NCBI GenBank assembly: GCA_020073465.1
Contig: JAIQFC010000032.1
Coordinates: 1-64,000 of the forward strand
Direction of reading: 5' to 3'
Source: Terriglobia bacterium
GTDB taxonomy: Bacteria > Acidobacteriota > Terriglobia > Terriglobales > Acidobacteriaceae
Length of the DNA: 64,000 nt
Shown: positions 43,074 to 62,951 of the stretch, one piece after another
Numbering within the stretch: the first letter of the stretch is position 1
Layout of the letters: each line of letters opens with the position of its first letter
Position numbers and translations under genes: made by a program
The notes under the pieces: model-generated
Told to the model about the DNA's origin: nothing
Database searches by the model: none
What the model saw: only the letters and a program-made list of their open reading frames with translations

Positions 43074-46703
<3,630 letters not shown>

Positions 46704-46894: not shown

Positions 46895-48346
46895 TTACGG
46901 TCCGACTCCGCCGGTGTGGCAATCACTGCAGTTGACCTGGGTCATGTCTCCCAAATCGACAGGATGCTGGAAGCCGGGCGCAGCAGTGGCGGCAAGGCTG
47001 GTCGTCCCCTCTGTCTCCGACATCAGGCTGTGGCACTGATCGCAGTCCTTGCCAATCACTTTGCCGTCTGCGCTGACGTGCTGACCATCGTGACAGCGGA
47101 AGCAGCCGTTGTAGTAGTAGTGCCCCAGGTTGTTGGGATGCGTCTGCCAGTTCAACTTCATCTCGGGGAACGTGGTCCTACGGAAGATCTGCTGAACTTC
47201 GTCCACCGCATTGCGAATCTCAAGCTGCTTCGTCTTCGCGACTTCGGGATACTTGCTTTCGTAGAACCCGTGCAGCCCGCTGGCGATGGCCTGCATGGCG
47301 GCGTCCGTGGTGGTGTAGGCGCCGGTCAGAACGGTGACCGCCTGCTGCTTGAGGAAGGGGAGAGATGTGTCCAGACGGTGGGCCACGAAAGATTGATCGA
47401 CAGCCTGGTCGGGCGGGACGTAGATGTGGGTGGGCCGGTTGTGGCAGTCCACGCAGTCCATGCGATGGCGGCTGGCCTTGGCAATCTGATCCTTACTGAG
47501 CGTGGAGTCCTTGGCGTAGTACTCGGTCACGCGCCCCTGCGCATCCTCGACCCGGATATAGGAGATCGTTTGCCGCTTCTCATCCGCCGCCACGTAGTCA
47601 ATCTTGTTGCTGATATTCATGTGCCAATGGATGCCCTCGGGCGCTCCAGTGGCCGGATCTCCGCCACCCGTCTTGATCAGCAACCGGATCTGGCGGATTG
47701 TGTTCTTCTCATCGTTGCTGTAATGGGTGAAGACCTTCATCTGCCCGCCATAGAACTTCTTGGGCCAGTGACAGGTTGCGGCGAACACCTGCCGGGCTCC
47801 AGAGAGTTTCGATTTCACATACCAGGTTGCCCCTGACCCCACGTGGCACTCCACACAGCCAACCCGGGCGTGCGGAGAGAGCTGGTACGCGGTGAACTCC
47901 GGATTCATGACGGTGTGGCACAGTTGTCCACAGAACTGGACGGAGTCGGTGAATTCGTAGGCCTTGTAGCTGCCGGCTGCGCTTACCATCGCAAACACGA
48001 TCAGGAACGTGGTGAAGGAAATGACGGCGCTGCGCTGGGTGGGATCGTTGAGATCGATCCGGGGATAGAAAGCAGTCTCGGCGACTTTTCTCCGGCGCTC
48101 GATGATGATGCCGGCAAAGATGAGCAGAATTCCAAGAATCAGGAAGGCGGGCGAAACCATGTAAGCCAGAATCCCGATGTACGGGCTTGGCCTCACGGCG
48201 ATAGCGTCGATCAGGACAAACAGGAAGATGTTGGCCAGGCTGACCAGCCCCAGCGCTACGCCGGCCAAACTGATGGGATCGCGCAACAGCATGCGCAACC
48301 GGCGCCAGGGCCTCGCCGCTTGCGGCGGGGATTTCTCATCATTCAT
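46895..48346 (-). CDS. NapC/NirT-type membrane multiheme cytochrome c (ImcH-like)
   Basis: 483 residues. Three predicted membrane helices (about 28-48, 60-82, 108-126) come first. Then a CX3CH motif, Cys139-GQL-Cys143-His144, followed by TVM, whose Met could be an axial ligand, then five CxxCH motifs (CVECH, CVDCH, CFRCH, CDQCH, CSDCH). Total six likely c hemes on the periplasmic side. Proteins of this type take electrons from menaquinol and give them to periplasmic carriers. The ImcH protein of Geobacter is a comparable NapC/NirT cytochrome. The start overlaps the upstream gene's stop by 8 bases, so the two are tightly coupled. Confidence 0.88.
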   Translation of the reverse strand: MNDEKSPPQAARPWRRLRMLLRDPISLAGVALGLVSLANIFLFVLIDAIAVRPSPYIGILAYMVSPAFLILGILLIFAGIIIERRRKVAETAFYPRIDLNDPTQRSAVISFTTFLIVFAMVSAAGSYKAYEFTDSVQFCGQLCHTVMNPEFTAYQLSPHARVGCVECHVGSGATWYVKSKLSGARQVFAATCHWPKKFYGGQMKVFTHYSNDEKNTIRQIRLLIKTGGGDPATGAPEGIHWHMNISNKIDYVAADEKRQTISYIRVEDAQGRVTEYYAKDSTLSKDQIAKASRHRMDCVDCHNRPTHIYVPPDQAVDQSFVAHRLDTSLPFLKQQAVTVLTGAYTTTDAAMQAIASGLHGFYESKYPEVAKTKQLEIRNAVDEVQQIFRRTTFPEMKLNWQTHPNNLGHYYYNGCFRCHDGQHVSADGKVIGKDCDQCHSLMSETEGTTSLAATAAPGFQHPVDLGDMTQVNCSDCHTGGVGP

Positions 48347-50351
48347 GCTTCACCTCGGCGGGTTCGCCATGGTCCGCGGTTGCAGTTTCCGTTTCCGGTT
48401 GCTCTTCCGTGGAGGCTTCCAGGTTCTCCGCCAAGGTTGCCGTGTCCAGGGCATGTTCTTCGCGGTAGTGGTGCAGGGGCATTTTACCGTCCCACCACGC
48501 CCAATTCATCGGATAAACGTCGGGATCGAGGAAAACCTGGTAGAAGTGCCAGACCACGATCGCCAGCGTGGCCAACACCGCTTCATAGAAGTGAATGGCG
48601 GTGGCTACGTCCAGCCACCAGCGCGGGAGATGGTTGCCCACCGAGACTTTGGCCCAGAGCATAAGACCGGTACCCGCCATCACGATCATGCCCCACACCA
48701 GAGCCCAGTACTCGGCCTTTTCGGCGTAGTTGAAGCGCGCGAAGGCCGGCTTGTGCGAAGCGAATCCCAGATGGTAGAGCAGGTTCTCCCATGCTCCCCG
48801 CACATCGTCGAGCGACGGAATCAGATCGCGGAAGAGCTTTCGCCCGTCCCGGGTGAAGGCCAGATCGACCATGTGATACAGGCTGACTCCGATCAGAAAC
48901 ACCGCCGCGACGCGATGCAGCAGGTGTCGCATCCTCTCACCCAGAGACAGGAACGAGGAGAACCACGAGTCCGGGAACTTCAAAGCGAAGCCCGTCAGCA
49001 CGAGCACGATGAAGCTCAAGAGCAGGATCGCATGCTGCCAGCGGTAGCGCAGGGGCATGCGCTCGACCAGGTTCTGTTCGACCTTGCGCAGGGCAATGAC
49101 CTTGGCGCGCCACAGAATGAAGTTGTGCGCCAGCATCCCGCCTATGACCAGGAGGATCATCGAGAGATAGAACTTGCGAATCCAGCGCACGGCTTTGCTG
49201 CCGACATCGGCCGACAGCGGGGCATCCACGTGCACTCGTGCCGCAGTAAACTTCTCGGTCACGCCGGGATGGCACTGGCCGCAGGTGTGCGCCAAGTTGG
49301 CCCGGTTAATGGTGGAATGAGGATCGCTGGAAGGAAGAATATTGTGAACCCCGTGACAGCTGGCGCAGTTCGCGACCACCTGCGAACCTCCCCTGGCGGC
49401 GAGCCCGTGATAGCTCGCCAGGTAGGTCGTGGTCCGGCGTCCTTCGATGCCGAATTCCTGCGACAGCCTCACGCCTTCATGACACCGTGCACACGTGACC
49501 TGCGCCAGATTCTGGGTTGATACCGGAGAATTCGGATCCAGGTGCGACTTGATGGAATGAATCCCGTGACAGTCCGTGCATACGGGCGCCTGCCAGTTGC
49601 CCTGTGCTACCGCTTTCCCGTGAATGCTCTGCTGAAATTCGCGGGAGACGCCGTCGTGACACTTTCCGCAGGTTGAAGGTACGTTGAACTTGAAGATCGG
49701 CGACTTGGCATCCTTGGCGTCGAGGATCTCGTGGGTGCCGTGGCAGTCGGTGCAGACCGCAGCCCTTTCCGATCCATTGGCCACGGCATGTCCGTGCACG
49801 CTCTGCTTGTACGAGGCCAGCATCTGGGCACCCTGGCCTCCGTCCTCCATCACGAAGTTTTGTCCATGGCAAGCGCCGCAGGTGGCAGGAATATTCGCGT
49901 GGTGGACCCGTGACTTGGGATCACTCGCCGGAAGCAGTTCATGCGCGCTGCCATGGCAATCGATGCACGTGGCCGCGCGACTATTGCCACCCAGCACCGC
50001 CTTAGCATGGAAGCTGCGATCGTAGGTCGCTTGCTCGTCTGCATGGCAAGTCGCGCAATTGACTTTGGCAGGAACCGTTTCGTGCGGAGAGCTCTTGAGG
50101 TCAGTGTGGCAATCCACGCAGGTAAACATGCCACCGTGGATAGAATCCTTGAATGCCTGAGGGTTTACGTAAAGACTGACCTTCTTGCCGTTAACTTCGT
50201 GGCTCAGAGTCGAGTCGCTGTGGCAGACTAAGCAGTCCTCGGCGGAGAGTTTTGCTGGTTGCTTGCCCGGAGCGCCGAGCGCCTCGACAGAAAAAAGCAG
50301 GGTGAGCGCGATTCCAAGCGCAACAAATCTCCTTGTGTTTCGCCTAGACAT
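48339..50351 (-). CDS. 11-heme cytochrome c fused to a b561/FdnI-type membrane domain (CbcL-like)
   Basis: 670 residues. Signal peptide, then eleven CxxCH motifs between about residues 40 and 350 (CLVCH, CVDCH, CATCH, CIDCH, CGACH, CTDCH, CGKCH, CTDCH, CARCH, CASCH, CGQCH) in octaheme-like spacing. From about 385 to 620 there are four or five membrane helices with His residues typical of HydC/FdnI/cytochrome b561 domains (RWQHAILLLSF, HLLHRVAAVF, AIHFYEAVLAT). The same architecture, with nine hemes, is known for CbcL of Geobacter, a menaquinol oxidase for extracellular electron transfer. The C-terminal tail is Glu/Thr-rich. Probably co-transcribed with the NapC-type gene. Confidence 0.88.
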   Translation of the reverse strand: MSRRNTRRFVALGIALTLLFSVEALGAPGKQPAKLSAEDCLVCHSDSTLSHEVNGKKVSLYVNPQAFKDSIHGGMFTCVDCHTDLKSSPHETVPAKVNCATCHADEQATYDRSFHAKAVLGGNSRAATCIDCHGSAHELLPASDPKSRVHHANIPATCGACHGQNFVMEDGGQGAQMLASYKQSVHGHAVANGSERAAVCTDCHGTHEILDAKDAKSPIFKFNVPSTCGKCHDGVSREFQQSIHGKAVAQGNWQAPVCTDCHGIHSIKSHLDPNSPVSTQNLAQVTCARCHEGVRLSQEFGIEGRRTTTYLASYHGLAARGGSQVVANCASCHGVHNILPSSDPHSTINRANLAHTCGQCHPGVTEKFTAARVHVDAPLSADVGSKAVRWIRKFYLSMILLVIGGMLAHNFILWRAKVIALRKVEQNLVERMPLRYRWQHAILLLSFIVLVLTGFALKFPDSWFSSFLSLGERMRHLLHRVAAVFLIGVSLYHMVDLAFTRDGRKLFRDLIPSLDDVRGAWENLLYHLGFASHKPAFARFNYAEKAEYWALVWGMIVMAGTGLMLWAKVSVGNHLPRWWLDVATAIHFYEAVLATLAIVVWHFYQVFLDPDVYPMNWAWWDGKMPLHHYREEHALDTATLAENLEASTEEQPETETATADHGEPAEVKHE

Positions 50352-50408
50352 GCTCTCACCCGCCGATCCTCAGTAATCACGATCCCCGAGCCGCGTTGGC
50401 GGCCAGTC

Positions 50409-50738
50409 TTACTTCTTTAGCGTGCGAATGTAGGCCACGAGGTCCTTGATCTCCGTGTCTTTCAGTTTCCCCTCGTACGCCGGCATCTTGCCCTTGCCCT
50501 TGGTAATGATCTCGGTCAGTTGTGCATCGGTCTGCTTCTGCACATCCGCCGAAGTGAAATCATGGGCTCCCAGCTTTACGCCCATGGGCGAGCCCTTGCC
50601 GTCGGCACCGTGGCAGGCCACGCATTTCGCTTTGAAGGTTGCAGCCGCATCCTGTGCCTGAGCGGATGAGGCACACACCCACAGCAACCCGCTTAGCAGC
50701 AAGGCTGCCAGGCTTACTCGAGAGAAGAGATGTTTCAC
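50409..50738 (-). CDS. Small soluble monoheme cytochrome c
   Basis: 109 residues from GTG 50738, which has AAGGAGG eight bases upstream. Signal peptide (SLAALLLSGLLWVCASSAQA), then one heme site CVACHGADGKG and a Met ligand probably in KGKMPAYEGK. This is the class I, c6/cbb3-like small carrier fold, ending AYIRTLKK. It is first in the minus-strand operon and would shuttle electrons between the multiheme proteins. A TAATAT -10-like box lies at 50771-50776 on the minus strand, with a weak -35. Confidence 0.9.
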   Translation of the reverse strand: MKHLFSRVSLAALLLSGLLWVCASSAQAQDAAATFKAKCVACHGADGKGSPMGVKLGAHDFTSADVQKQTDAQLTEIITKGKGKMPAYEGKLKDTEIKDLVAYIRTLKK

Positions 50739-50925
50739 TTTTGCTTCCTCCTTGGAAGGTTCTACGCAAGATATTACAAAAATTTGCACACTGCACACCT
50801 TGATCCTCGAGAAGCCATGGCCGCGGTGGATCCGGTTCGTTAGCCTGCCGCTTCCAGGAACTTGCTCGACCTGTCAGATTCGCATGGCCTGTTTGGCCGG
50901 ACCTATGGCAGAAGTCACCGCGCCC

Positions 50926-50941
50926 AGTGACGGGAATCACG
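50926..50941. promoter_or_regulatory. CRP/FNR-type palindrome B
   Basis: AGTGA-CGGGAA-TCACG, a near match to TGTGA-N6-TCACA, in the divergent gap (50739-51030) between the cytochrome operon and the radical SAM gene. Centre 34 bases from palindrome C. The rest of this 292-base gap shows a TAGTTT box at 51019-51024. Confidence 0.6.
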
Positions 50942-50959
50942 TCCTCTTTTCCCACTGAT

Positions 50960-50975: not shown

Positions 50976-51030
50976 GCGACACGTGCCATTCCGCACTGCA
51001 CGAAGGCCTTTTCGAACGTAGTTTGGCACC

Positions 51031-52182
51031 ATGCCGACAGTGTCCGTCCCTCGGATCCCGGCCAAGAATGCGGGTCACGCCACCGCGAAAAGGACCTCGT
51101 TGCGAGCGTCCGAAACTTCCAGCGGACTTCTGGACGCGCGCGAATTTCATCTCCGTCCCCTGCAAGTCACGTGGGAGGTAACGAAAGAATGCGACTGGAA
51201 GGCGACGCATGCCGGCACGTCCCCGCGCTGGCTGCGACTGCGGCATGGACTTTCGACCGCGGAAGCGTTTCATCTCGTGGATGAAGTTGCGGAAATGCAC
51301 GTCCCGCTGCTGGCCCTCACGGGTGGTGATCCGCTGCTGCGTCCCGACCTGCTGCCGATCGTCTGTTACGCGGCCCAACGCTCAGTGCGCACATCGCTTA
51401 CGGCTCTGCCCACGACGTTGCTCACGCGTGAGGTGATTTTCGAACTCAAACAATGCGGCCTGATGCGAATCGCCTTCTGGCTGCACGGCTCCACGCCCCA
51501 GCTGCACGACAGCTATTGGCATGTACCCGGCTCCCACCGGCGCACGCTGGAGGCGATCGGATGGTGCCACGAGGCGGAACTTCCCGTCCAGATCAACACC
51601 ACGATAGCGCGCCGTAACGTTCACGATCTCGATCCGATCGTCGACGCACTGACGCGTCTGGACGTGGTTTTGTGGAACGTTTTCTTCGTCGTCCCTGCCA
51701 GCTCCGAACAAGCCGGCCAGATGCTCAGTGCCGGGGAGCACGAGGAGACCTTCAACAGACTCTACAGAGCCTCCCGCCGCGTGCCCTTTCAGATCAAGAC
51801 TACCGAAGGCCAGCACTACCAGCGCTACCTGCTGCAGCAAAGCGCCAGCGAATCGCGGAGGAACCTCACAGAAGCGGATCTGAATCCCTGCACTCCCAAG
51901 GGAGTGAACGATGCCAAGGGGTTCGTCTTTGTGAACCGCGACGGCGAAGTCTATCCCAGCCGGTTTCTTCCTCTATCCGCCGGCAACATCACCACTGAAT
52001 CGCTGGCGTCAATCTATGGCGAGTCGCCGTTGTTTGTTACGCTGCGCGACAGCTCCAAGCTGAAAGGGAAGTGTGGCCGTTGCTCGATGCGGAGCGTCTG
52101 CGGCGGTTCGCGCGCTCGCGCCTATGCCATCACGGGCGACCTTCTGGCGGAAGATCCCTCCTGCGCCTATCTGCCTCAGTAA
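51031..52182 (+). CDS. Radical SAM/SPASM-family protein lacking the CX3CX2C cluster motif
   Basis: 383 residues. The family frame is clear: TWEVTKECD, the LALTGGDPLLRPDLLPI block, and a C-terminal SPASM-like domain (KGFVFVNRDGEVYPSRFLPL, then CGRCSMRSVCGGSRARAYA and a final DPSCAY). It resembles the TIGR04053/heme-maturation-like subgroup. However the cluster site reads Cys54-D-W-K-Ala58-T-H-Ala61 instead of C-x3-C-x2-C, so the SAM-binding 4Fe-4S cluster cannot form in the normal way. The Cys residues of the SPASM part remain. It may bind a substrate or cluster without SAM chemistry. It lies between cytochrome genes, under palindromes B and C. Start ATG has no clear ribosome site. Confidence 0.8.
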   Translation: MPTVSVPRIPAKNAGHATAKRTSLRASETSSGLLDAREFHLRPLQVTWEVTKECDWKATHAGTSPRWLRLRHGLSTAEAFHLVDEVAEMHVPLLALTGGDPLLRPDLLPIVCYAAQRSVRTSLTALPTTLLTREVIFELKQCGLMRIAFWLHGSTPQLHDSYWHVPGSHRRTLEAIGWCHEAELPVQINTTIARRNVHDLDPIVDALTRLDVVLWNVFFVVPASSEQAGQMLSAGEHEETFNRLYRASRRVPFQIKTTEGQHYQRYLLQQSASESRRNLTEADLNPCTPKGVNDAKGFVFVNRDGEVYPSRFLPLSAGNITTESLASIYGESPLFVTLRDSSKLKGKCGRCSMRSVCGGSRARAYAITGDLLAEDPSCAYLPQ

Positions 52183-52369: not shown

Positions 52370-52485
52370 CAACTGTGATTGATTATCCGGTAACCTTTCG
52401 CAGCCTCTAGCTAGAATCGGGCCCATCTTGGAACAAAACTAGAGGCCAAACCCCTCTTGAACTTATGACTGAAGGAGGCGATTCG

Positions 52486-54006
52486 ATGCGTTCCCGCCGT
52501 CCACTGATCTCGCTAACTCTTTTACTTCTAACGCTGGCCGTGTTGAGCAGTAGCAGCTATGCCATCCCGGCCTTTTCCCGGCAGTATGGTACCTCCTGTG
52601 CCACCTGCCACGTGGATTTCCCAAAACTGAACGACTTCGGCAAGGCCTTCAAGGATGCCGGATTCAAGTTCCCCAAGGATGACGAGAGCTTTTTGAAGGT
52701 TCCTCCCGTCATGCTGGGGGCGCCGGCCCAGAAGGACCTGTGGCCGCATACAATCTTCCCGGGCACGATTCCTGGCCTGCCTCCCATCGGTCTTCGCTTC
52801 AACACCTTTTTCCAGGTGGTGAGCAAGAACCGGAATGACATCAATGCCGCCAACCTGGCCAACCCGGGGACCTTTATCCCGCGCACCGATTTCCAGCCCG
52901 GCCTTTTCAGTATCTTCATGGCGGGCAACTTCGGCAGCGACATCGCCTTCTGGGTGGATGAGGACCTCAGCGTGGGTGGTTCCAACGCCGATGGAGGTCT
53001 GGGCGATGGTTACCTCAAGTTTGTGAACGTCGGCCGGTTTTTCAAATTGCCGACGGATTCACTCAGCCTGCGCATTGGCCAGTTTGAACTCGACCTGCCT
53101 TTCAGTCCGGCCCGCAGCCACAATCTGAGCGGCTGGGACATTTTCGATGAGGCAAACATCGGAGCCATGAGTTCGCTGGTCCCCGAGCAGAACGTGAACA
53201 ACGCGTTCGCCATGTCCAGCGCCGCCCAGGGCATTGAGTTCAGCGGCGGACACACGTACCGCGGCTATCACTACTCCCTGGCCATTGTGAACCAGAACAC
53301 CGGCGGAAATCCTTCGTCGGGAGATACGGTTCAGCCGGTGGTGGGCTTTTTCTCCGACTCGAATTTCAAGGACCTGTATGGCCGTTTCTCCTACCGCTTT
53401 AATCTCGAGAGAGACCCGGCCAGCCGCAATGAAGTACAGGCCGCGGGCGCGACCGGCCCACGCGATCACACTTACCTGAACCTGGGTAGCTTCTACTTCT
53501 ATGGCCGGTCCGTACAGCGCTTCCAGGGCGCCAACGGTGTTCTTACCGCCAGGGAACCGTTCTACCGATTGGGAGGCGATTTCAGCTTCAACTATCACGC
53601 TTTCAATCTCTACGGAATGTACATGTACGGCCACGACAAGAACCTGACGCTGTTTCCCGATGCTGAGACGGCGACCGGCTTCCAGAGCGGCGTGCCCGCG
53701 ACCTTCAGTGGCGGCTTCCTGCAAGCCGACTACATGCTGGCGCCGTGGGTGATGGGCATCATGCGCTATGACGTGGTCAAATCAAGTGCAGACCGGATCA
53801 ACACCTTCGGTACCGAACTGTCGCCACTTTCCGCGACCCGGAACCGGTTCACACCGGGGGTGCAATTCCTGATTCACGCCAACATCAAGGCCGCTCTCGA
53901 GTATCAGATTCGGCCCCAACAGACCGTGTTCGATTCTGACGGGAACCGGATCGCAAAGCCGTTCCGAACCAACTCGGCGGTGGCGGATCTGGAGTTTGTC
54001 TACTGA
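52486..54006 (+). CDS. Monoheme cytochrome-porin fusion, Cyc2-like
   Basis: 506 residues from ATG 52486 (AAGGAGG eight bases upstream). Signal peptide (LTLLLLTLAVLSSSSYA), then a short N-terminal cytochrome with the Cyc2-type sequence PAFSRQYGTSCATCHVDF followed by KLNDFGKAFKDAGFKF. The rest (about 80-506) is beta-strand-rich with many Gly/aromatic residues and ends VADLEFVY, as for an outer-membrane porin. Cyc2 of iron-oxidising bacteria has this heme-plus-barrel plan and moves electrons across the outer membrane. This protein is somewhat longer than classical Cyc2, so it is Cyc2-like, not proven orthologous. Palindrome D lies upstream and a terminator-like hairpin follows. Confidence 0.72.
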   Translation: MRSRRPLISLTLLLLTLAVLSSSSYAIPAFSRQYGTSCATCHVDFPKLNDFGKAFKDAGFKFPKDDESFLKVPPVMLGAPAQKDLWPHTIFPGTIPGLPPIGLRFNTFFQVVSKNRNDINAANLANPGTFIPRTDFQPGLFSIFMAGNFGSDIAFWVDEDLSVGGSNADGGLGDGYLKFVNVGRFFKLPTDSLSLRIGQFELDLPFSPARSHNLSGWDIFDEANIGAMSSLVPEQNVNNAFAMSSAAQGIEFSGGHTYRGYHYSLAIVNQNTGGNPSSGDTVQPVVGFFSDSNFKDLYGRFSYRFNLERDPASRNEVQAAGATGPRDHTYLNLGSFYFYGRSVQRFQGANGVLTAREPFYRLGGDFSFNYHAFNLYGMYMYGHDKNLTLFPDAETATGFQSGVPATFSGGFLQADYMLAPWVMGIMRYDVVKSSADRINTFGTELSPLSATRNRFTPGVQFLIHANIKAALEYQIRPQQTVFDSDGNRIAKPFRTNSAVADLEFVY

Positions 54007-54010
54007 GTAT

Positions 54011-54035
54011 GGGGAGGCGTGGCCTCCCCTTCATT
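54011..54035 (+). terminator. Hairpin after the Cyc2-like gene
   Basis: Perfect 8-base stem GGGGAGGC (54011-54018) / GCCTCCCC (54022-54029), loop GTG, then TTCATTT. It lies between two co-directional genes, so partial termination is possible. Confidence 0.55.
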
Positions 54036-54072
54036 TCACGAGTTCGCGAACTTTGCAGTTCAAGGAGAAATC

Positions 54073-54654
54073 ATGAAACGCAATCTTGTAGTGATCGCGG
54101 CATTGCTGAACGCGCTGAGCCTGCTGGCGAGCGCCGGAACGATCAGTGGAAAAGTGTCAGGTGTGAGTGGTGAGTCGGTGGTTTACGTGGAAGCGATCGC
54201 CGGAAAGACCTTCCCGGCTCCGACGGAAAAGCCGGTCATCGACCAGAAGGGCCTGATGTTCCAGCCCCACCTGGTCGTGGTACAGCAGGGCACGACGGTC
54301 GAATTCCTCAACAGCGATAAAGTCGCCCACAACGTTTTCTGGATTTCGGTCGGCGGCAACAAGAAACTCGGTCACAACCTCGGCACCTGGCCGCAAGGAG
54401 AAAAAAAGAGCTTTAAGTTCGATACCCCGGGCGCGGTGCCTCTGCTGTGCAACGTCCACCCCGAGATGTCGGCGTACATTGTAGTCACGCCTACGCCGTA
54501 CTTCGCAACCACGGACAAGTCCGGGAATTACAAGATCGAAAACGTTCCGGACGGCAGCTACACGGTGACCGCATGGCATGAGGGCGCGAAGAACCAGTCG
54601 AAGCCGACCACGGTGGCCGGCGAGGGCAAGGCGGATTTCACCCTGAGCAAATAG
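54073..54654 (+). CDS. Periplasmic plastocyanin-like cupredoxin with C-terminal beta domain
   Basis: 193 residues; ATG 54073 follows AAGGAG. Signal peptide (IAALLNALSLLASAG). The cupredoxin domain is about 30-140, with type-1 copper ligands in KVAHNVFW (His) and LLCNVHPEMSAY (Cys, His, Met). The last 50 residues (KSGNYKIENVPDGSYTVTAW) form a small regulatory-like beta domain. A blue-copper carrier for one electron, placed right after the Cyc2-like porin, so it may accept or supply its electrons (inference). Confidence 0.88.
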   Translation: MKRNLVVIAALLNALSLLASAGTISGKVSGVSGESVVYVEAIAGKTFPAPTEKPVIDQKGLMFQPHLVVVQQGTTVEFLNSDKVAHNVFWISVGGNKKLGHNLGTWPQGEKKSFKFDTPGAVPLLCNVHPEMSAYIVVTPTPYFATTDKSGNYKIENVPDGSYTVTAWHEGAKNQSKPTTVAGEGKADFTLSK

Positions 54655-54665
54655 AATATCAGGAG

Positions 54666-54691
54666 GGGGGCGGCTGACGAATGCCGCTCCC
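54666..54691 (+). terminator. Hairpin after the cupredoxin gene
   Basis: About 9 base pairs, including one G-T: GGGGGCGGC (54666-54674) / GCCGCTCCC (54683-54691), 8-base loop, but only a weak T run. It may separate the Cyc2-like/cupredoxin pair from the bc operon. Confidence 0.45.
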
Positions 54692-54766
54692 TAACTGTTT
54701 CAGCCGGGCTTCATCCCAAACAAGACTCTTGACGTTCAGCCGCATCACAAACTAAAAGTGCTCGCA

Positions 54767-56725
54767 ATGCTGAAGCGATACAAAAACAAGAAGGTTGACG
54801 GGGATTGGCTGAACACGAACTTTCCCTGCATGATGGCCTGTCCGGCCCACACCAATGCCGGGCGCTATGTAGGCCTGATTGCCGAGGGGCGGTTCGAAGA
54901 GGCCTACCGAATCGCGCGCGATCCCAACCCGCTGGCCAGTATCTGCGGGCGAGTGTGCGCACATCCCTGCGAGACCGCGTGCCGCCGCGGCGAAATCGAC
55001 AGGCCCATCTCGATTCGTGCTCTCAAGCGTTTTCTCACCGAGCAGTTTGGGCCGGAGTCGAAGAATCCCATTCCAGTGAATGAAGGCCGGACGCAGAAGA
55101 AACTCCCTTACAAAGTGGCCGTAGTCGGCGGCGGCCCGGTGGGATTATCGGCCGCGCACGACCTGGCGCTGATGGGATATGCCGTCACCATCTTCGAAGC
55201 GGCTCCGGTTGCCGGCGGAATGCTGTACCTGGGAATTCCGGAGTACCGCTTGCCGCGCGACGTGGTCGAAGCGCAGGTCCGCGAGATTCTCGAGACCGGC
55301 GACATCACGCTCAAACTGAATCACGCGGCCGGCCGCGACTTCACCGTTTCCGATCTGCGCCGGCAGGGATTTGACGCCGTGCTGATCGCCGTCGGCGCCC
55401 ACCGCAGCCGCGATCTCAGCATTCCCGGAGTCGATCTCGACGGCGTGCACAAGGGCATCGATTTTCTGCTCAACGTGAACTTGGGATACAAGTTCACCAT
55501 CGGCAAGAAAGTCATTGTGATCGGCGGTGGCAACGTCGCCATGGACGTGGCTCGTTCTGCCGCACGCGAGGTGGTGAAGCAACATGCCGCCGGAGTACTG
55601 GACGCCGAGCCCTCCGCTGAAAATGTCACGGCGGTGGCTACCCGCGAGATGGTCGACATCTCGCTCTCTGCGCTGCGTATGGGCGCGCAAGAGGTGAATC
55701 TGGTTTGCCTGGAACGCCGCGAGGAAATGCCCGCCGCGCTCGAGGAAATAGAAGAGGCCGAGGAAGAAGGGATCATCATGCATCCGGGCCTCGGTCCCAA
55801 GCGCATGATTGGTAAAGATGGCAAGGTTGTCGCGCTTGAAACCCTCAAAACAAAATGGGTCTTCGATCAGAACAGGCGCTTCAATCCGGCGTTCTTCGAT
55901 GGCAGCGAGAGCCAGATCGAGTGCGACACCATCATCATGGCCATCGGCCAGTCCCCGCGCCTCGACTTCTTTACGCCGGAAGACAAAGTCGAACTTTCCC
56001 CGCGCGGCCTGATCGCGGTGAATCCGGAGACTTTGATGACTTCCGCCGAAGGGATCTTCGCCGGGGGCGATTGCGTCTTCGGCCCGCGCCTGATTATCGA
56101 TAGCGTGGGCGACGGAAAGCGCGCCGCGGTCGGAATCGACGAATACCTTCGCAAGCACAAACATCCCGAGCCGATCATCGAAGTCGAGGTACTCAAACGG
56201 CACTCGATGCCGCTGGACTATCTCGACATCAACCGCCAACCGGTGCCGATGCTCCCTCTCGAACGTCGCACGGGTGTCACCGAAGTGGAAGTCGGCTACG
56301 ATGCTCCGGCCGCGATGGAGGAAGCGCAACGCTGCCTGCACTGCTGGGTGAACACGATCTTCGAGGGCACTCCGGAAGACGGCAGCATGTGCATCCTGTG
56401 CGGCGGTTGCGTCGACGTATGTCCGGAGAAGTGCCTGGAACTGGTATCCCTGAATCGAATCGAGTTTGAACCGGAGACCGTGCAGCACATTCGCGAGAAC
56501 CAGGAATGCTTCGGGGTCGAGTTTGACGAGGTAGCGGCCGATGAACTGGGCGTGGTGACGGGGTCGGCTATGTTGAAGGACGAAACCCGCTGCATCCGCT
56601 GCGGGCTGTGTGCCATGCGCTGTCCGGTAGGCACCATCACCATGGAGTCGTACAACTTTCTTCCCGCCGAGCCAACGGGTCTGATCTCGGTGGCGTCCAT
56701 TGGAGCGGGACTGCGTGCTAAGTAG
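54767..56725 (+). CDS. GltD-like FAD/NAD(P) oxidoreductase with N- and C-terminal Fe-S modules
   Basis: 652 residues. The N-terminal Fe-S region has Cys-rich PCMMACPAHTNAGRY and CGRVCAHPCETACRRG as in GltD/DPYD-type proteins. FAD site VVGGGPVGLSAA (about 122-133), NAD(P) site VIGGGNVAMDVARSA (about 265). Two ferredoxin-like motifs, CILCGGCVDVCPEKC and CIRCGLCAMRCP, end the chain. No glutamate synthase large subunit is nearby, so it is more likely an electron-input module (NAD(P)H or ferredoxin) for the bc-type complex encoded next. The start is uncertain: GTG 54758 is in frame, and neither has a ribosome site. Confidence 0.88.
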   Translation: MLKRYKNKKVDGDWLNTNFPCMMACPAHTNAGRYVGLIAEGRFEEAYRIARDPNPLASICGRVCAHPCETACRRGEIDRPISIRALKRFLTEQFGPESKNPIPVNEGRTQKKLPYKVAVVGGGPVGLSAAHDLALMGYAVTIFEAAPVAGGMLYLGIPEYRLPRDVVEAQVREILETGDITLKLNHAAGRDFTVSDLRRQGFDAVLIAVGAHRSRDLSIPGVDLDGVHKGIDFLLNVNLGYKFTIGKKVIVIGGGNVAMDVARSAAREVVKQHAAGVLDAEPSAENVTAVATREMVDISLSALRMGAQEVNLVCLERREEMPAALEEIEEAEEEGIIMHPGLGPKRMIGKDGKVVALETLKTKWVFDQNRRFNPAFFDGSESQIECDTIIMAIGQSPRLDFFTPEDKVELSPRGLIAVNPETLMTSAEGIFAGGDCVFGPRLIIDSVGDGKRAAVGIDEYLRKHKHPEPIIEVEVLKRHSMPLDYLDINRQPVPMLPLERRTGVTEVEVGYDAPAAMEEAQRCLHCWVNTIFEGTPEDGSMCILCGGCVDVCPEKCLELVSLNRIEFEPETVQHIRENQECFGVEFDEVAADELGVVTGSAMLKDETRCIRCGLCAMRCPVGTITMESYNFLPAEPTGLISVASIGAGLRAK

Positions 56726-56798
56726 CGAGGAATTACATCGTGGGCAAAGCATCGTGTCGCCGCCAGCAGAGCTCAGTCGTGCAGCGAAGGCATTCATT

Positions 56799-56858
56799 AG
56801 CCCGGCACGTAAGTGCTGGGTAGACATGGAGAAGGGAATGAGTCCCGTAGGGACGGTA
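56799..56858 (+). repeat. Dispersed ~60-base intercistronic repeat, copy 2
   Basis: Begins AGCCCGGCACGTAAGTGCTG and ends AGTCCCGTAGGGACGGTA, giving two hairpins. It matches copy 1 (27276-27337) at about five of six positions with one indel. It ends ten bases before the Rieske start. Confidence 0.75.
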
Positions 56859-56868
56859 CAAGGTACAC

Positions 56869-57363
56869 ATGGCAGACGACAACAAACCGACGAACGGTAA
56901 CGACGCGGTGAACCGCCGTCAATTCTTCGCAAAGCTGGGCCTCGGTTCTCTGAGCATTGCGGCGGCGGGCACTGCGGTTTTCTCGTATCAGTTTCTGTCA
57001 CCCAACGTTCTCTACGAGCCCTCGCCCGTGGTCAACGCCGGCAAGCCGGATCGTTATCCGCTCGATTCAGTCACGCTCGACGTGAACTCCGGGATCTACA
57101 TCATCCACTCGCAGGAGGGCTTCTTCTCGCTGAGCGCGGTGTGCACGCATCTCGGCTGCCTGACGGCGTGGAAGCCGGAACTGGGCATCATTGCCTGCCC
57201 GTGTCACGGCAGCAAGTTCGAGCAGACCGGGAAAAAAATCGAGGGCCCCGCCCCCAGGCCGCTGCCGTGGAAGCGCATCTGGATCAATGACGATGGGGAT
57301 CTCCTGGTGGACCGCTCCACTGACGTGCCCCCGCTGCAGAGGGATTCCTACGTGAGGGTTTGA
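56869..57363 (+). CDS. Rieske iron-sulfur protein of a cytochrome bc complex
   Basis: 164 residues. The N-terminal [18 protein letters not shown] is a Tat-type signal/anchor. The cluster motifs CTHLGC and CPCHGSKF with the His and Cys ligands are intact (about residues 91-118). It transfers electrons from quinol to the c-type partner. It starts after the dispersed repeat and is followed within three bases by cytochrome b, so they are one operon. The ribosome site is only AAGGT. Confidence 0.95.
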
Positions 57364-57365
57364 GC

Positions 57366-58160
57366 ATGGCTAAGACGGTGGACCAATATTTCGACGATTT
57401 GCGCGGCACGCGCGTGTGGCGCTCAATCTTTCGCAGCGGCACCGGATCGAGCACGCTGAAGCGCGCGCTCGCCATCCAGCAGAACGTGTTCCTGCACCTG
57501 TTCTCGACCAAAGTCCGTACCCGCATGCTGAGCTTCAGCGCGACGTGGTATCTGGGCACGCTGACGCTGGGAACATTTCTGATTCTGGTCGCGACCGGAA
57601 TTCCGCTGATGCTCTACTATCACCCATCGGTGCCGCAGGCCTACGCAGACACAAAGGACTTGCAGTTCGTCGTCTCCTCAGGATTGTTTCTGCGCAACCT
57701 GCACCGCTGGGCCGCCCACGCCATGGTGTTTCTGGTCTTCGCGCATATGTTCAAGGTCTTCTATCGTGGCGCCTATCGCGCTCCACGCGAGTTCAACTGG
57801 GTGATTGGTGTCATCCTTCTGCTGATCACGTTGCTGCTCAGCTATACCGGCTACCTGCTTCCCTGGGACCAGCTGGCCTACTGGGCGATCACGGTCGGAT
57901 CGAACATTGCGTCCGCTGTCCCGCTCATGGGAAACAAGATTCACTTCCTGCTGCTTGGTGGAAACGCGGTCAATGCCAATGCGCTGCTGCGCTTCTACGT
58001 GCTGCACTGCATGATCCTGCCCCTGACCGCGATGTTCTTTGTCGCCATCCACTTCTGGAGGATTCGCAAAGACGGTGGCCTCTACTCTCACGCCAGCGAA
58101 CCCGCAACGCTACGGGCGCGCGCTGCGAGTGGCGCCGCGGCCGGAAAGGAGGCGCAATAG
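57366..58160 (+). CDS. Cytochrome b, N-terminal (b6-like) subunit
   Basis: 264 residues, four membrane helices. Heme His pairs: RNLHRWAAH to VFAHMF (14 apart) and VLHCMIL to AIHFW (15 apart). The 15-residue second spacing is the cytochrome b6 pattern, not that of mitochondrial-type b. The Cys that binds heme c(n) near the N-terminus of b6 is absent. ATG 57366 is used; a TTG six bases earlier overlaps the Rieske stop. Works with the subunit IV-like protein encoded next as quinol:electron-carrier oxidoreductase. Confidence 0.94.
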
Positions 58161-58162
58161 CT

Positions 58163-58870
58163 ATGGCCGACTCCAAGGACCTCGTCGCCGGCATTGACTC
58201 GAACGCGAAGAAGTCTCCGCGCCGCATCGTTTTCATCACCCGCCGCACTTCGGCGCAGGTGAAAGCTGACACCGAAGACCAGCTGCAAACTTTTCCCGAG
58301 GTTCTGTTCCGCGCGGCAGTTGCCATTCAGGTGCTGGCCATCGTTCTGGTCGCGATCGCGCTGATGTTCAACGCACCTCTGGAAGGCTTGGCCGATTCTT
58401 CGCACACGCCGAATCCGGCGAAGGCGCCGTGGTACTTTCTCGGGCTGCAGGAGATGCTGCACTACTTTCCGCCGGTCGTCGCGGGTGTGCTGGCTCCTGG
58501 GCTCGTCGTAATCGCTCTGATTGTGATTCCGTACTTCAAAGTCAATATTGAAGCCGAAGGATTTTTCCTGAAAGATCGCGAGCGCCGCCTGCGCATCTTC
58601 TACGCGGTTGCCGCGGGGCTGATGATCTTTCTGGGTTTCTTCCACGTGCTGGCCGCGCTCGTGCCGACACTGATCATGGCCGGGTTCATGCTGCTGGCGT
58701 CGCAGAGTTCTCCGCAGTCCTCCTCGGCGTTCCGCCGATACCTGGCCGCAAGGCCGCTTTCCTATTGGGTTATGACATGGTTCTTATTCGAGCTGGTGGT
58801 GCTGACCGCCATCGGCACATTTTTCCGCGGACCGGGCTGGTCGTGGGTCTGGCCGTGGCAGGGATCGTAA
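58163..58870 (+). CDS. Cytochrome b C-terminal (subunit IV-like) protein
   Basis: 235 residues from ATG 58163 (GAAAGGAGG upstream). The quinol-site sequence reads KAPWYFLGLQEML, a variant of the PEWY motif, with three to four membrane helices after it. The N-terminal 50 residues are polar and extra compared with plant subunit IV. The open frame extends far upstream only because it overlaps cytochrome b in another frame. Confidence 0.92.
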   Translation: MADSKDLVAGIDSNAKKSPRRIVFITRRTSAQVKADTEDQLQTFPEVLFRAAVAIQVLAIVLVAIALMFNAPLEGLADSSHTPNPAKAPWYFLGLQEMLHYFPPVVAGVLAPGLVVIALIVIPYFKVNIEAEGFFLKDRERRLRIFYAVAAGLMIFLGFFHVLAALVPTLIMAGFMLLASQSSPQSSSAFRRYLAARPLSYWVMTWFLFELVVLTAIGTFFRGPGWSWVWPWQGS

Positions 58871-58877
58871 GGCGCCC

Positions 58878-60923
58878 ATGAAAGAGATACTCAAGTCGTT
58901 CTGGCAGAAGTTGTTCGGAGACAGCGTTCGCGCCTTCGGAGTGGTCAGCCTCGTGTTCCTGGCATCGCTGGCGATCGCTCCGGCAAAGAACTTCTTCAGC
59001 GAGTGGCGTCACTACCAGCACGGCTACCTGAGGATGATCCGCAACCGCAGCGATGCCAACACGCTGCAGCGCCATTTCCAGGGCGGCATTCAACAGATCT
59101 GGTTGCCTGAACTTGGAGTGACCGACCGCTGCACGAGCTGCCACGTTGGTCTCAAAGAGGCTGGGCTCACCGACGTCGGGACACAGCCGTTCCGCAAGCA
59201 TCCCGCGATCCCGCACGCCATCGATCAATTCGGCTGCACCGTCTGTCATCGCGGACAAGGCGCCGCCACCACCGTCGCGGAAGCGCATAACAGCACGCTC
59301 GCATGGGAGCAGCCTATCCTGCCCGCAAAATACATCGAATCGTCCTGCGGCGAGTGCCATCGTGGTTCCGTGCCCGGCACGCCGCAACTCACTCAGGGAC
59401 GGCAGTTGCTGTCGCGCTACGGCTGCGTACACTGCCACACGGTGAAACGTCCCGATGGCAGCACCATGAAGCCGACGGATGATCCGCCGTCGCTCTCCCA
59501 CATCGCCGACAAAACTTCGCGCGAGTGGGTCTACGCCTGGCTGAAGGATCCGCAGGCCTACGCCACTACCGCCACCATGCCGAACTTCAAGCTGAGTGAC
59601 GATGACGCGCGCGACATGTCTGCGTTCCTGATCGCCAACAGCACTCCGCTGCCGGGAGACACGGCCACGCTCACTGCCAAGCCGGCGTCCGATCCCGCCG
59701 CCGGCCCCAGCCTCTACGGCGAATCCTTCTGCGCCTCGTGCCATGCCGTGCAAAATGCAGCGGGCAACCTCGTGGGTGGAGATGTGGGACCGGAACTCAC
59801 CCGCGTGGGCAGTAAGGTCAAGCCAGAGTGGTTGCAGGCCTGGCTGCGCAGTCCGCGCGTTTACGATGCCGAGACCGCCATGCCGCACTACCGTTTCAGC
59901 GATCCGCAGGTCGCGACTCTCTCCGGATTCCTGCTGGCGAAGGCCGACTCGGACCTGCTGGCCAACGTTCACCTCGACGCGGCCACGCCCCAACAGATCG
60001 CGCACGGCAAGCGCCTGGTGTCGGATTACGGCTGCGCGTCCTGCCACGAGATCGCGGGCATCAAGAAGCCGGAGAACTTCGCTCCCGAACTCAGTCGCAT
60101 TGGCAGCAAGCCGGTCACGCAGCTCATCTTTCTTCCCGGAATGCCGCACACCTTGCCTGACTACATCGCGGGCAAGATCAAGCAGCCGCGTGCATTTTCG
60201 CCGGGCCTGAAGATGCCGCAGTACAGCTTTGGTCCGGCGCAGATCGATGCGCTGACCACCGCGCTGCTTGCGTTGAATGACCGGGCCAGCACGTTGCCTC
60301 CATCCTTGACAGTGCCGGCCGTCCCCGAGTCCAGTTACGAACCAGCCGGTAAAGCTGGAAAACTGATGAGCGACCTCGCCTGCTTCAGTTGTCACCGCAT
60401 CAACGGACACGGAGGCACCATGGCGCCCGATCTTACCTGGGAAGGGAGCTCCGTGCAGCGCCAGTGGCTGGTTGAATTCCTGAAGAATCCGAACACGCTG
60501 CGCCCATCGCTGATCCGTCGCATGCCTCGTTTCAATCTCACCGACGGCGAGGTCAAGGAACTCACCGACTACATGATGACCGTGTACCAGAGTCCGTCCG
60601 TCGATCGCGACTCGATGCTCCTGAGCGGGTACACGCCGGGTCAGATCGAACTCGGCAAGCAGCTTTTCTACGGCAAGTATTCCTGCCAGGGCTGTCACAT
60701 CGTGGATACCAAGACGGACAAGGGATACATTGGCCCGACGCTGACGCACGTGGGCTCACGGCTTACCGCTGCGTGGATCTTCGAGTGGATGAAGAATCCG
60801 CAGGCCCTGCGCCCGGGCACGGCCGAGCCGAATCGCGCCATGAGTGACGGCGATGCGCGTGCCTTGACCGCGTTCCTGATCTCTCAGAAGGGCGGAGCCA
60901 AACAGGAGGTCGCAAAGAAATGA
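58878..60923 (+). CDS. Membrane-anchored octaheme cytochrome c of the bc complex
   Basis: 681 residues. One N-terminal membrane anchor (AFGVVSLVFLASLAIAP), then eight CxxCH motifs: CTSCH, CTVCH, CGECH, CVHCH, CASCH, CASCH, CFSCH, CQGCH. The last four sit in typical mono-heme cytochrome c folds with Met regions such as TAMPHY, LKMPQY and RRMPRF. Ordinary bc complexes have one c1 heme, so this eight-heme c1 substitute is distinctive and resembles multiheme bc variants of anaerobes. Seven bases after subunit IV; its stop overlaps the next start. Confidence 0.92.
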   Translation: MKEILKSFWQKLFGDSVRAFGVVSLVFLASLAIAPAKNFFSEWRHYQHGYLRMIRNRSDANTLQRHFQGGIQQIWLPELGVTDRCTSCHVGLKEAGLTDVGTQPFRKHPAIPHAIDQFGCTVCHRGQGAATTVAEAHNSTLAWEQPILPAKYIESSCGECHRGSVPGTPQLTQGRQLLSRYGCVHCHTVKRPDGSTMKPTDDPPSLSHIADKTSREWVYAWLKDPQAYATTATMPNFKLSDDDARDMSAFLIANSTPLPGDTATLTAKPASDPAAGPSLYGESFCASCHAVQNAAGNLVGGDVGPELTRVGSKVKPEWLQAWLRSPRVYDAETAMPHYRFSDPQVATLSGFLLAKADSDLLANVHLDAATPQQIAHGKRLVSDYGCASCHEIAGIKKPENFAPELSRIGSKPVTQLIFLPGMPHTLPDYIAGKIKQPRAFSPGLKMPQYSFGPAQIDALTTALLALNDRASTLPPSLTVPAVPESSYEPAGKAGKLMSDLACFSCHRINGHGGTMAPDLTWEGSSVQRQWLVEFLKNPNTLRPSLIRRMPRFNLTDGEVKELTDYMMTVYQSPSVDRDSMLLSGYTPGQIELGKQLFYGKYSCQGCHIVDTKTDKGYIGPTLTHVGSRLTAAWIFEWMKNPQALRPGTAEPNRAMSDGDARALTAFLISQKGGAKQEVAKK

Positions 60924-61663
60924 CTCGCGCACCGGCAATCGTCTTGTCTGTTGTCGTCGCCTTGGGAGCGTCGCTGGCAACTTCATGCTCGCGCAAGCCG
61001 GCTTCCGCGGCAGCGTTGAAGCCGACTGCATTCGGAGCGGCCATCGTCGAATCCAGCGGCGGAAAGCAGATTGCGCAGACGGGCGGCCTGCTGCCCCAGC
61101 CTGTCATCGTGCAGGTGAATGACGAGCAGGGAACCGCTGTCACCGGAGCGTTGGTCGATTTCAGCGGGCCCGCAGGAGTCAGCTTCGATCCGGCGTCTGC
61201 CCTCACCGACTCCAGCGGCCAGGTCACCACGAATGTTTCTCTAGGCGGGATGGCGGGCCGTTACAAGGTGACCGCTTCGACGATCGACAAAGCTCATAAG
61301 ACAGTCGAAATCACGCTCGACGAGATCGCCCTTGGCTACTCGCAGACTCTGGGACGCCAATTGAACGAGCAGTACTGCGAACGCTGCCACAATCCCGAGT
61401 CCACCGTCGAGCGCGTCTCGAACTACGACAACCTCGAGGTGAAGCCGCATCCGTTCACCGAGGGCGATACCTACAACAAGATCAGCGACGCCGATCTCAC
61501 GGCCATCATCAGCCACGGCGGTCCGGCACTGAACAAGTCCGCGCTGATGCCCGCGTGGGGCAACACGCTGAGCAAGTCCGAGATCCAGGCGCTGATATCC
61601 TATATTCGTGCCGTCTCTGATCCTCCCATTCGCAATGCCGGACCGGTCTATGCCAAGAACTAG
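60920..61663 (+). CDS. Monoheme cytochrome c with Ig-like domain, probable lipoprotein
   Basis: 247 residues. Signal with a weak lipobox (LATSC, Cys23). Residues about 55-145 are an Ig-like beta domain (QPVIVQVNDEQGTAVTGALV). The heme site CERCHNPEST is near 154 and a Met region, SALMPAWG, follows. The ATG overlaps the previous stop (ATGA), so it is coupled to the octaheme protein. It likely hands electrons on to a periplasmic partner. Confidence 0.85.
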   Translation: MTRAPAIVLSVVVALGASLATSCSRKPASAAALKPTAFGAAIVESSGGKQIAQTGGLLPQPVIVQVNDEQGTAVTGALVDFSGPAGVSFDPASALTDSSGQVTTNVSLGGMAGRYKVTASTIDKAHKTVEITLDEIALGYSQTLGRQLNEQYCERCHNPESTVERVSNYDNLEVKPHPFTEGDTYNKISDADLTAIISHGGPALNKSALMPAWGNTLSKSEIQALISYIRAVSDPPIRNAGPVYAKN

Positions 61664-62951
61664 TCTGCTGCTGCTCTGCGTGAGTCTATTGGTCGGGGCA
61701 GCGTTCGCTCAGGTAATTCCTCCCACCGAGATCAAGGATGCGGAACTGCGCGCGCTGCAGGAGCGCAACCTCGACGAACTGAAGAAACTGGGAGCGGACA
61801 TCCTCGCGCTGCCCACCGACTATCCCTTTTATCTGAGCCGCCATCTTGATCTTGACGAAGCCAAACAGAAATGGTCCGACCAGCGCTCCATTCAGTTTGA
61901 CCGCTACAAGGGGAAGGTCGTGCTCGAGATCACCGGCAACTATTACGCTGCCTACTCTGGGGAAAAGATGACCGGCGATCAGCGGGCCCGGGAAACTTTT
62001 CTCAGAATCCTCGAGCCAATGCTGAAGGCCGCCGTCACCCGCTTTCAGAACAATGCCAGCGTGCAGGCTTACGCCTTTGAGATTTCCCATCACGTGCTGG
62101 GAAAAGTTGGCGGAGTCAACGTCGAGCGGCCGGAAAACCTGGTGGTGATTCTTCCGCAACAGGCTGCGACGCGGTTCGTGGCTGCCAACGAAGCGAGCGT
62201 TCAGCAGTCCGCTCTCTTACAGGGCGAAGTTCTGTTGAACGCGAAGCCGGCGACGATCTGGCTGAGTGGGGAAGGCCCGCAACTGGCGCAGCAGACTCCG
62301 GAGGATCCCTCCACAGCCGCACAACCCGCGACTTCCTCCACCGCCGAGGTCGTCCACAACGGCACTGAGCCGGATCTCGACAAGCTGCCCAGTCCCGTGC
62401 ACGTGCCTGCGTTGAAGCCGGTGAAACCGGCGGACCCGCCGCGCCCCGCCCGCGATACCTCTCCGGCCGCGCTGGTCTCGCTGCAATCCGCACTGAAGCC
62501 AGTCCTCGATACGATGGTGAAAGACCTGGATCCGCTGGCGCATTTTGTGACCTACGCTGCGCCTAATTTCGTAGCCTTCCGCAACGGCATCTACCTGGAG
62601 CTTTCCATCAACACCGCACTGGCCGAGCCAACCACCGCCTCGCGCTACCGTCTGGCGGCCCTCGCTTTCGACGAACACGTTTCTCACCTGATTCGCCCCG
62701 TGATCGGCCAATTCAAGGACGACTCGCAGTTCGACGGTATCGGCTTCAGCGCCAACCTTCATCTCAGCGCCAAGCCCGCCGCCAACGCCAGTTCCCAGGC
62801 CGTGGAGTTCTTCTTTCCGTTCTCCGCACTGCGCTGCTACGAGCGCTACGACTGCACCGGCCAGCAATTGCTCGACGCGGGAACGGTCCTGATCAATGGC
62901 GAACGGGTAAGCCTGGACCTGCAGATTGCCGAGGGCGGCGGCAACCGCTGA
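61650..62951 (+). CDS. Secreted protein of unknown function at the end of the bc operon
   Basis: 433 residues from ATG 61650, 14 bases inside the preceding gene; in-frame ATG 61635 is also possible. Signal peptide (LLLLCVSLLVGAAFAQ). No heme or metal motif. A proline/alanine/threonine-rich linker (about 205-280) separates an N-terminal module with YYAAYSGEKMTGDQRARET from a C-terminal module with FNTALAEPT-like beta pattern and FFPFSALRCYERYDC. It may be an envelope assembly factor for the complex. Confidence 0.6.
   Translation: MPRTSLLLLCVSLLVGAAFAQVIPPTEIKDAELRALQERNLDELKKLGADILALPTDYPFYLSRHLDLDEAKQKWSDQRSIQFDRYKGKVVLEITGNYYAAYSGEKMTGDQRARETFLRILEPMLKAAVTRFQNNASVQAYAFEISHHVLGKVGGVNVERPENLVVILPQQAATRFVAANEASVQQSALLQGEVLLNAKPATIWLSGEGPQLAQQTPEDPSTAAQPATSSTAEVVHNGTEPDLDKLPSPVHVPALKPVKPADPPRPARDTSPAALVSLQSALKPVLDTMVKDLDPLAHFVTYAAPNFVAFRNGIYLELSINTALAEPTTASRYRLAALAFDEHVSHLIRPVIGQFKDDSQFDGIGFSANLHLSAKPAANASSQAVEFFFPFSALRCYERYDCTGQQLLDAGTVLINGERVSLDLQIAEGGGNR

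Follow-up and report, generated by a model that had tools for sequence, protein, structure and literature searches.

Nine plus-strand genes at positions 52465 to 62951 of a 64,000-nucleotide stretch from a Terriglobia bacterium (positions 1 to 64,000 of JAIQFC010000032.1, assembly GCA_020073465.1) encode a Cyc2-like porin-cytochrome together with a cupredoxin, an FAD-dependent oxidoreductase and the subunits of a putative Rieske/b6 complex. This stretch, hereafter the window, is part of contig C59 of a 5.9 Mb host genome. An earlier note on this DNA had combined several of these genes with neighbouring cytochrome genes into one candidate extracellular electron-transfer system spanning 46895 to 62951. 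Every gene listed in that note is an intact open reading frame with the coordinates given here; it had overlooked the FAD oxidoreductase, the monohaem cytochrome c with an Ig-like domain, a NirJ/AhbD-like protein, and the protein of 447 amino acids (aa) whose reading frame closes that interval. The nine genes are as follows.

52465..54006, plus strand: porC, a Cyc2-like porin-cytochrome of 513 aa with the AIPAFSRQYGTSCATCHVDFPKL haem motif, a signal peptide judged by eye and a beta-barrel
54019..54654, plus strand: cupredoxin (PF00127) with a CarboxypepD_reg-like domain
54758..56725, plus strand: FAD/NAD(P)/4Fe-4S oxidoreductase of the GltD/NfnB type, 655 aa, with an N-terminal Fer4_20, Pyr_redox_2 and C-terminal ferredoxin clusters
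56869..57363, plus strand: Rieske [2Fe-2S] subunit with the motifs CTHLGC and CPCHGSKF
57360..58160, plus strand: cytochrome b6-type subunit, an ExtP relative, with no Cys at the heme c_n position
58163..58870, plus strand: subunit IV-like protein, an ExtQ relative, with five hydrophobic segments and the Qo motif APWY
58878..60923, plus strand: octahaem cytochrome c (c8) with eight CXXCH and an N-terminal hydrophobic segment
60920..61663, plus strand: monohaem cytochrome c (IgC) with an Ig-like domain, a possible lipoprotein (lipobox judged by eye)
61608..62951, plus strand: 447-aa protein with no family match, which accompanies the porin/cupredoxin pair

Pfam and NCBIfam matches to the window proteins were taken at E≤0.001, and at this threshold porC had none; nor did its sequence match any PDB sequence or plasmid. 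Published criteria for Cyc2 comprise a single CXXCH, an upstream AXPXFAR[Q/K][T/Y] motif, a downstream PXL, at least 365 aa and a C-terminal beta-barrel porin (PMC8406198; this and all other papers are cited here from partial texts). Indeed, porC carries one CXXCH with a PXL downstream of it (CATCHVDFPKL) and combines 513 aa with a barrel, while its upstream motif, AIPAFSRQY, is one residue away from the published form. The best PDB match of its AlphaFold2 model was the porin OprP (2o4v, E 1.7e-10), which is among the porins used for modelling Cyc2 (PMC8406198). We refer to porC as Cyc2-like in the sense that, as judged by the published criteria, it agrees with them except for one motif residue.

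Conservation of the nine-gene cluster

Occurrence was followed in a class sample of 151 genomes, a phylum sample of 396 Acidobacteriota genomes and a named set consisting of the best 80 of 336 relatives, all with titles of metagenome-assembled genomes (MAGs) and one (L151) labelled Ignavibacteria. The class, phylum and named loci overlap, and their counts were not added together. Sampling was of Acidobacteriota, with no claim made on occurrence in other phyla. Synteny of the class loci was examined by tblastn (E≤1e-4) on 39 fetched loci, one being the window's own contig end and 38 coming from relatives. The order that recurred was porin-cytochrome, cupredoxin, FAD protein, Rieske, b6, subunit IV, c8, IgC and 447-aa protein. 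A porC orthologue (E≤1e-90) was present in 27 of the 151 class genomes, and the FAD gene adjoins it in 26 of these 27, G030 lacking the FAD gene only. All nine genes lie on one contig in 22 of the 26 class genomes other than the window's; the remaining four are L057 and L063, which are cut by contig ends, G112, where porC is split over two contigs, and again G030. Matches to porC of any kind at E≤0.001 were found in 72 of the 151 genomes and were mostly short and N-terminal.

The same picture was obtained for the other two sets. Among the 80 named loci, 51 extend at least 9.3 kb past porC, and 45 of these hold all nine genes; two of the other six lack the 447-aa gene, three retain only the cupredoxin and 447-aa genes and one only the cupredoxin gene. 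The named loci with cluster genes among those closest to the window's are L102 (Candidatus Sulfotelmatobacter) and L109 (Acidobacteriaceae palsa_252). In the phylum sample, the c8 profile (E≤1e-100) matched 38 of the 396 genomes at 40 places, 30 of which were fetched as new loci, the other ten being the window itself and nine genomes of the same family that the class loci had covered. Loci that end too early were excluded (L203, L207, L220, L224, L225, L227 and L229; L224 and L225 end within the porC match), and the other 23 extend at least 6 kb upstream. A same-strand Cyc2-type haem motif was present in 22 of these 23, in its strict form in 17 of the 22; in L226, porC was seen only as a tblastn match, the motif being absent from the pattern scan. 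The Rieske, b6 and subunit IV genes were found in all of the 23 loci except L205, and the FAD gene in 19. As a control, the motif was sought in 16 other loci (285,350 bp) and in 7.24 Mb of base-shuffled sequence, with no match in either. The association of a Cyc2-like porin-cytochrome and a cupredoxin with an eight-haem Rieske/b6 complex, which the earlier note had pointed out, is indeed a conserved unit, and its order recurs across the phylum beyond chance. A literature search of titles and abstract starts found no account of the nine-gene cluster.

As with the gene content, clustering and family relations of the plus-strand genes, their cofactor motifs can be read directly. The copper-ligand motif CxxHxxM of the cupredoxin is retained in 32 of 32 homologues. 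Of 33 homologue rows for the Rieske protein, 32 have the motif CPCHGS, and a contig end cuts the remaining one. In complexes of the Kuenenia type, a Ser (and a Tyr) near the Rieske cluster is associated with a high potential; the window protein has Phe where the Tyr would be. The usual porC was not seen in L067 and L201, which have a canonical FARQTG-type gene at the opposite end of the cluster, past the monohaem gene. A near form follows the monohaem gene in L068, the set of three being of the FARQTG or YARQTG type, and no usual porC was seen in this locus, which ends just past the cupredoxin gene. This suggests that porC was replaced by another Cyc2-like protein in these three loci.

The 447-aa protein, modelled with a predicted local distance difference test score (pLDDT) of 79, had no Pfam or NCBIfam match, and its model no PDB match at E≤0.001. 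Its gene stays with the porin and cupredoxin genes in loci that lack the bc complex as well. Of 11 such complex-less porC loci whose genomes were searched, nine have both the cupredoxin and the 447-aa gene, L124 the cupredoxin gene only and L133 the 447-aa gene only; the genomes of L124, L131 and L133 have an FAD homologue elsewhere, with the caveat that MAGs can have gaps. The outer-membrane portion may thus be able to function with different partners. A more distant porin-cytochrome and cupredoxin pair was seen in L072, L073, L074 and L077, which belong to another family of the class, with no bc-complex match in the fetched stretch.

Proposed quinol bifurcation and the direction of electron flow

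Both the Rieske and the FAD protein suggest kinship with Kuenenia complexes that are linked to NAD(P). The best PDB matches of the Rieske subunit, 9rk4 and 9rk3, are Kuste4569 and Kustd1480 of Kuenenia, and the Rieske potentials reported for the Kuenenia proteins are +303 and +335 mV (PMC12954380). The FAD protein matched NF009410 at 459 of 516 bits, and its best PDB sequence groups were 9bov/9bp5 and NfnA; 9bp5 is also the structural homologue found for the Kuenenia NAD(P) subunit (PMC12954380). The Kuenenia complexes, for which NAD(P)H-forming bifurcation has been argued, comprise a Rieske protein, a b6, a five-helix subunit IV, a hexa- or octahaem cytochrome c and an NAD(P) oxidoreductase (PMC12954380). 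Since an NAD(P) oxidoreductase lies inside the cluster, the likely mechanism is altered from that of the earlier note.

We consider it very probable that the nine genes act as one functional unit (52465-62951) by which the outer membrane is connected with quinone and NAD(P). A role of this plus-strand cluster in extracellular electron transfer, as proposed earlier, is plausible. The assembly of the complex, the order of its carriers, bifurcation, substrate and direction are what we infer from sequence. In the reading that we prefer, the Rieske/b6/subunit IV complex would reside in the cytoplasmic membrane and oxidise quinol, one electron passing via the b haems to the cytoplasmic FAD/4Fe-4S subunit and on to NAD(P)+, while the Rieske centre would pass the other to the octahaem cytochrome. 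The monohaem cytochrome and the cupredoxin would then form a periplasmic relay to the Cyc2-like porin in the outer membrane, and the porin-cytochrome would hand the electron to an oxidant reached via the pore, such as Fe(III) or another high-potential acceptor. Fe(III)-reducing Acidobacteria are known (PMC8790237). Taken in full, as a nine-gene unit with quinol bifurcation and outward flow through porC, this reading falls a little short of an even chance in our judgement. More tentative still is the idea that the Cyc2-type porin serves as the outlet, where an outside oxidant would take one electron per quinol and so drive the other to NAD(P)+.

Related complexes were seen in the host, whose genome has four cytochrome b loci, and in class relatives. 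On contig C12 of the host (L084, G000:C12, 6245-15421), genes for an FAD protein, a Rieske protein, a fused b and a six-haem cytochrome c are directly followed by a type II dimethyl sulfoxide (DMSO) reductase alpha/beta pair, matched by TIGR03479 and TIGR03478 above the curated cut-offs. In the relatives L075 and L076, an FAD-linked Rieske/b complex with a seven-haem cytochrome c adjoins cbb3-type ccoN and CcoG genes, with ccoO in L075; these assignments are best matches, all below the equivalog cut-offs. A further host locus on contig C21 (L083, G000:C21, 4798-10856) encodes a Rieske/b6 complex whose eight-haem cytochrome measures 1088 aa; an FAD gene was not seen in the stretch fetched there. 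A conserved FLH histidine of b6, tried as a marker of the extra haem b proposed for Kuenenia, was rejected, as it is also present in this C21 complex, where no FAD gene was seen beside it.

Both arms of a bifurcating Rieske/b complex use one quinol, so that NAD(P)H formation would mean that the c branch delivers electrons. If the related FAD-linked complexes beside oxidase-like genes or a DMSO reductase are the same machine, their c branch would likewise deliver to an acceptor. Together with the logic of bifurcation, c-branch delivery in these relatives would favour outward flow via porC.

Alternatively, electrons could flow inward, the porin oxidising Fe(II) or another donor and the cupredoxin passing electrons to the octahaem cytochrome, while the Rieske/b6 complex would run in reverse, uphill to quinone, and terminal oxidases would take electrons downhill. 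The characterised Cyc2 proteins, which share the haem motif, are Fe(II) oxidases (PMC8406198), and the Acidithiobacillus rus operon likewise combines Cyc2 and a copper protein (PMC10654088). Moreover, Cyt572 of Leptospirillum clusters with acidobacterial and Nitrospira homologues, and the Leptospirillum bc1 has mostly Brocadiales, Desulfobacterota and Nitrospinales as its neighbours (PMC10654088). The host itself has two COX1 matches above the cut-off. However, with an NAD(P) arm in place, reversed Rieske/b flow would by this reasoning use up NAD(P)H and not make it, and relatives of the complex adjoin oxidase-like genes. RuBisCO had no match in the host, and PF00016 matched in 11 of the 151 class genomes, only three of which are among the 27 that are porC-positive, which argues that autotrophy by the Calvin-Benson-Bassham cycle is no regular partner of the cluster; such autotrophy with Fe(II) was rejected for the host. 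We consider inward flow unlikely, albeit a serious contender.

A number of observations weigh against outward flow from a bifurcating complex. No FAD gene was found in L050, L205, L214, L226 and L228, and in L052, one of the 22 class genomes with all nine genes, it is split between frames; the NAD(P) coupling would thus not be obligatory. The three full-flank named loci, out of 51, with porin, cupredoxin and 447-aa genes lack the complex, and eight of the 11 searched genomes of complex-less porC loci have no FAD homologue at 1e-100. With regard to porC itself, 26 class orthologues have their N-terminus covered; the Cyc2 upstream motif is exact in 9 of them, and 17 deviate from it by one or two residues. 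The barrel model has a modest confidence (pLDDT 62), and L204 has a stop codon after the haem motif, a copy that may be broken or misassembled. The ccoN matches of L075 and L076 scored 332.9 and 326 of 583 bits, under the equivalog cut-off, and type II DMSO reductases include oxidising enzymes as well. No Cys was found at the heme c_n position of b6 in the window or in the aligned relatives, this position being the one that we take from spinach b6. Even for Kuenenia, where heme c_n is present, the formation of NAD(P)H by bifurcation is a proposal (PMC12954380). Lastly, three characterised Cyc2 proteins oxidise Fe(II) (PMC8406198), and the outward flow proposed here for porC would run opposite to their inward flow.

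The neighbouring ImcH-like/CbcL-like module

Upstream of porC lie a minus-strand module, formed by the first three genes below, and a plus-strand gene.

46895..48346, minus strand: ImcH-like NapC/NirT-type cytochrome (PF03264) with three hydrophobic segments, five CXXCH and one CX3CH
48339..50351, minus strand: CbcL-like fusion of an undecahaem cytochrome c with b561 (11 CXXCH and PF01292)
50409..50798, minus strand: monohaem cytochrome c
51031..52182, plus strand: NirJ/AhbD-like radical-SAM/SPASM protein with radical-SAM cysteines missing

In Geobacter, ImcH is a seven-haem NapC/NirT protein with three helices, and CbcL consists of a nonahaem cytochrome c and a b-type membrane domain. Set against these descriptions only, the CbcL-like protein has 11 haem motifs and PF01292; the ImcH-like gene is present as the earlier note had it, with PF03264 and its three hydrophobic segments, and its haem motifs are corrected to six.

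In the earlier note, the CbcL-like and ImcH-like proteins were quinol oxidases feeding the Cyc2-like conduit in a single system. Their genes do adjoin the Cyc2-like cluster in the window and in L109, and L097 has another NapC-like gene (40%) about 9.5 kb past porC, beyond the far cluster end. However, CbcL-like homologues (E≤1e-40) were found in 53 of the 151 class genomes, and in all 17 other class genomes that have both, the CbcL-like gene and the porC orthologue lie on different contigs. A NapC-like gene was near the CbcL-like gene in 9 of the 12 CbcL-like loci examined. The NapC-like, CbcL-like and radical-SAM genes had no tblastn match (E≤1e-4) in the 38 loci from relatives, 27 of which are porC loci, with 21 of these 27 extending at least 6 kb upstream of porC. 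Among the 55 of 80 named loci that extend 6 kb upstream, the arrangement of the window was repeated in L109 alone, a close relative; L101 has a radical-SAM homologue upstream. By the earlier note's own test of joint conservation in relatives, the plus-strand nine recurred, and the CbcL-like and ImcH-like genes were not conserved with them. Judged by this synteny, the NapC-like and CbcL-like genes form an acidobacterial operon in their own right, which is a separate neighbour of the plus-strand cluster. A single CbcL/ImcH/Cyc2 system was rejected on the same basis, and that the pair feeds the conduit strikes us as extremely improbable.

A pyruvate:ferredoxin/flavodoxin oxidoreductase gene (43074-46739, minus strand) adjoins the NapC-like/CbcL-like operon, and the same was seen in L109. 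The NirJ/AhbD-like protein, which scores under the TIGR04053 cut-off, lacks two of the three CX3CX2C cysteines (CDWKATHA), as does its L109 homologue (CDWRSTPA); the motif is kept in the other 18 of the 20 alignment rows covering it, L101 and L232 possibly being one gene and L248 having no motif coverage.

Significance and relation to known systems

Cyc2 homologues are sought as indicators of iron oxidation (PMC8406198), and acidobacterial Cyt572 homologues have already been published (PMC10654088). Our findings place a Cyc2-type gene beside a quinol complex with an NAD(P) subunit in many acidobacterial families, and relatives of this complex adjoin an oxidase-like pair or a molybdoenzyme. This advises caution where iron oxidation is called from no more than a Cyc2-like match. 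The direction and substrate of Cyc2-like proteins become testable in soil and peat bacteria, and the proposed NAD(P)H-forming Rieske/b complexes would gain a second system, outside anammox. If the porin is an outlet, this would represent a widespread acidobacterial route to NAD(P)H that uses an extracellular oxidant.

The closest parallel is found in Kuenenia, where Kustd1480-1485 and Kuste4569-4574 likewise combine Rieske, b6-type, five-helix subunit IV, multihaem cytochrome c and NAD(P) oxidoreductase genes in one cluster; the Kuenenia Rieske proteins are the closest solved relatives of the cluster Rieske, and 9bp5 is a PDB homologue common to the FAD subunits. Apart from the difference in heme c_n, the cited text on Kuenenia describes no porin, cupredoxin or Cyc2 (PMC12954380), and Kuste4574 is an HAO-like octahaem protein, a type not seen in the cluster.

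The selenite/tellurite cluster extHIJKLMNOPQS of Geobacter also couples a Rieske protein, the ExtP b6, ExtQ and ExtS with an outer-membrane porin (PMC5877670). In the NCBIfam comparison, b6 scored 254.7 of 290 bits against ExtP, subunit IV 59.8 of 150 against ExtQ and c8 80 of 100 against ExtS, all under the curated cut-offs. By analogy, an ordinary Q-cycle could operate in which the FAD subunit feeds in electrons from NAD(P)H, with the porin mainly as a channel for an oxyanion or metal reduced in the periplasm. We hold this to be improbable: the haem motif of porC is conserved and its partner is a copper protein, whereas ExtI is described as a porin with no mention of haem in the text cited, and the gene list given there includes neither an FAD subunit nor a cupredoxin (PMC5877670).

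The Cyc2 and Cyt572 iron oxidases resemble porC in the single CXXCH, the PXL, the length above 365 aa and the OprP-like barrel (PMC8406198), a likeness judged by these criteria; the upstream motif of porC deviates by one residue. They differ in that porC has as its genetic partner an octahaem Rieske/b6 complex linked to NAD(P). Finally, the rus operon of Acidithiobacillus shares with the cluster the pairing of Cyc2 with a periplasmic copper protein, which is coupled there to Cyc1 and an aa3 oxidase instead of a Rieske/b6-NAD(P) complex (PMC10654088).

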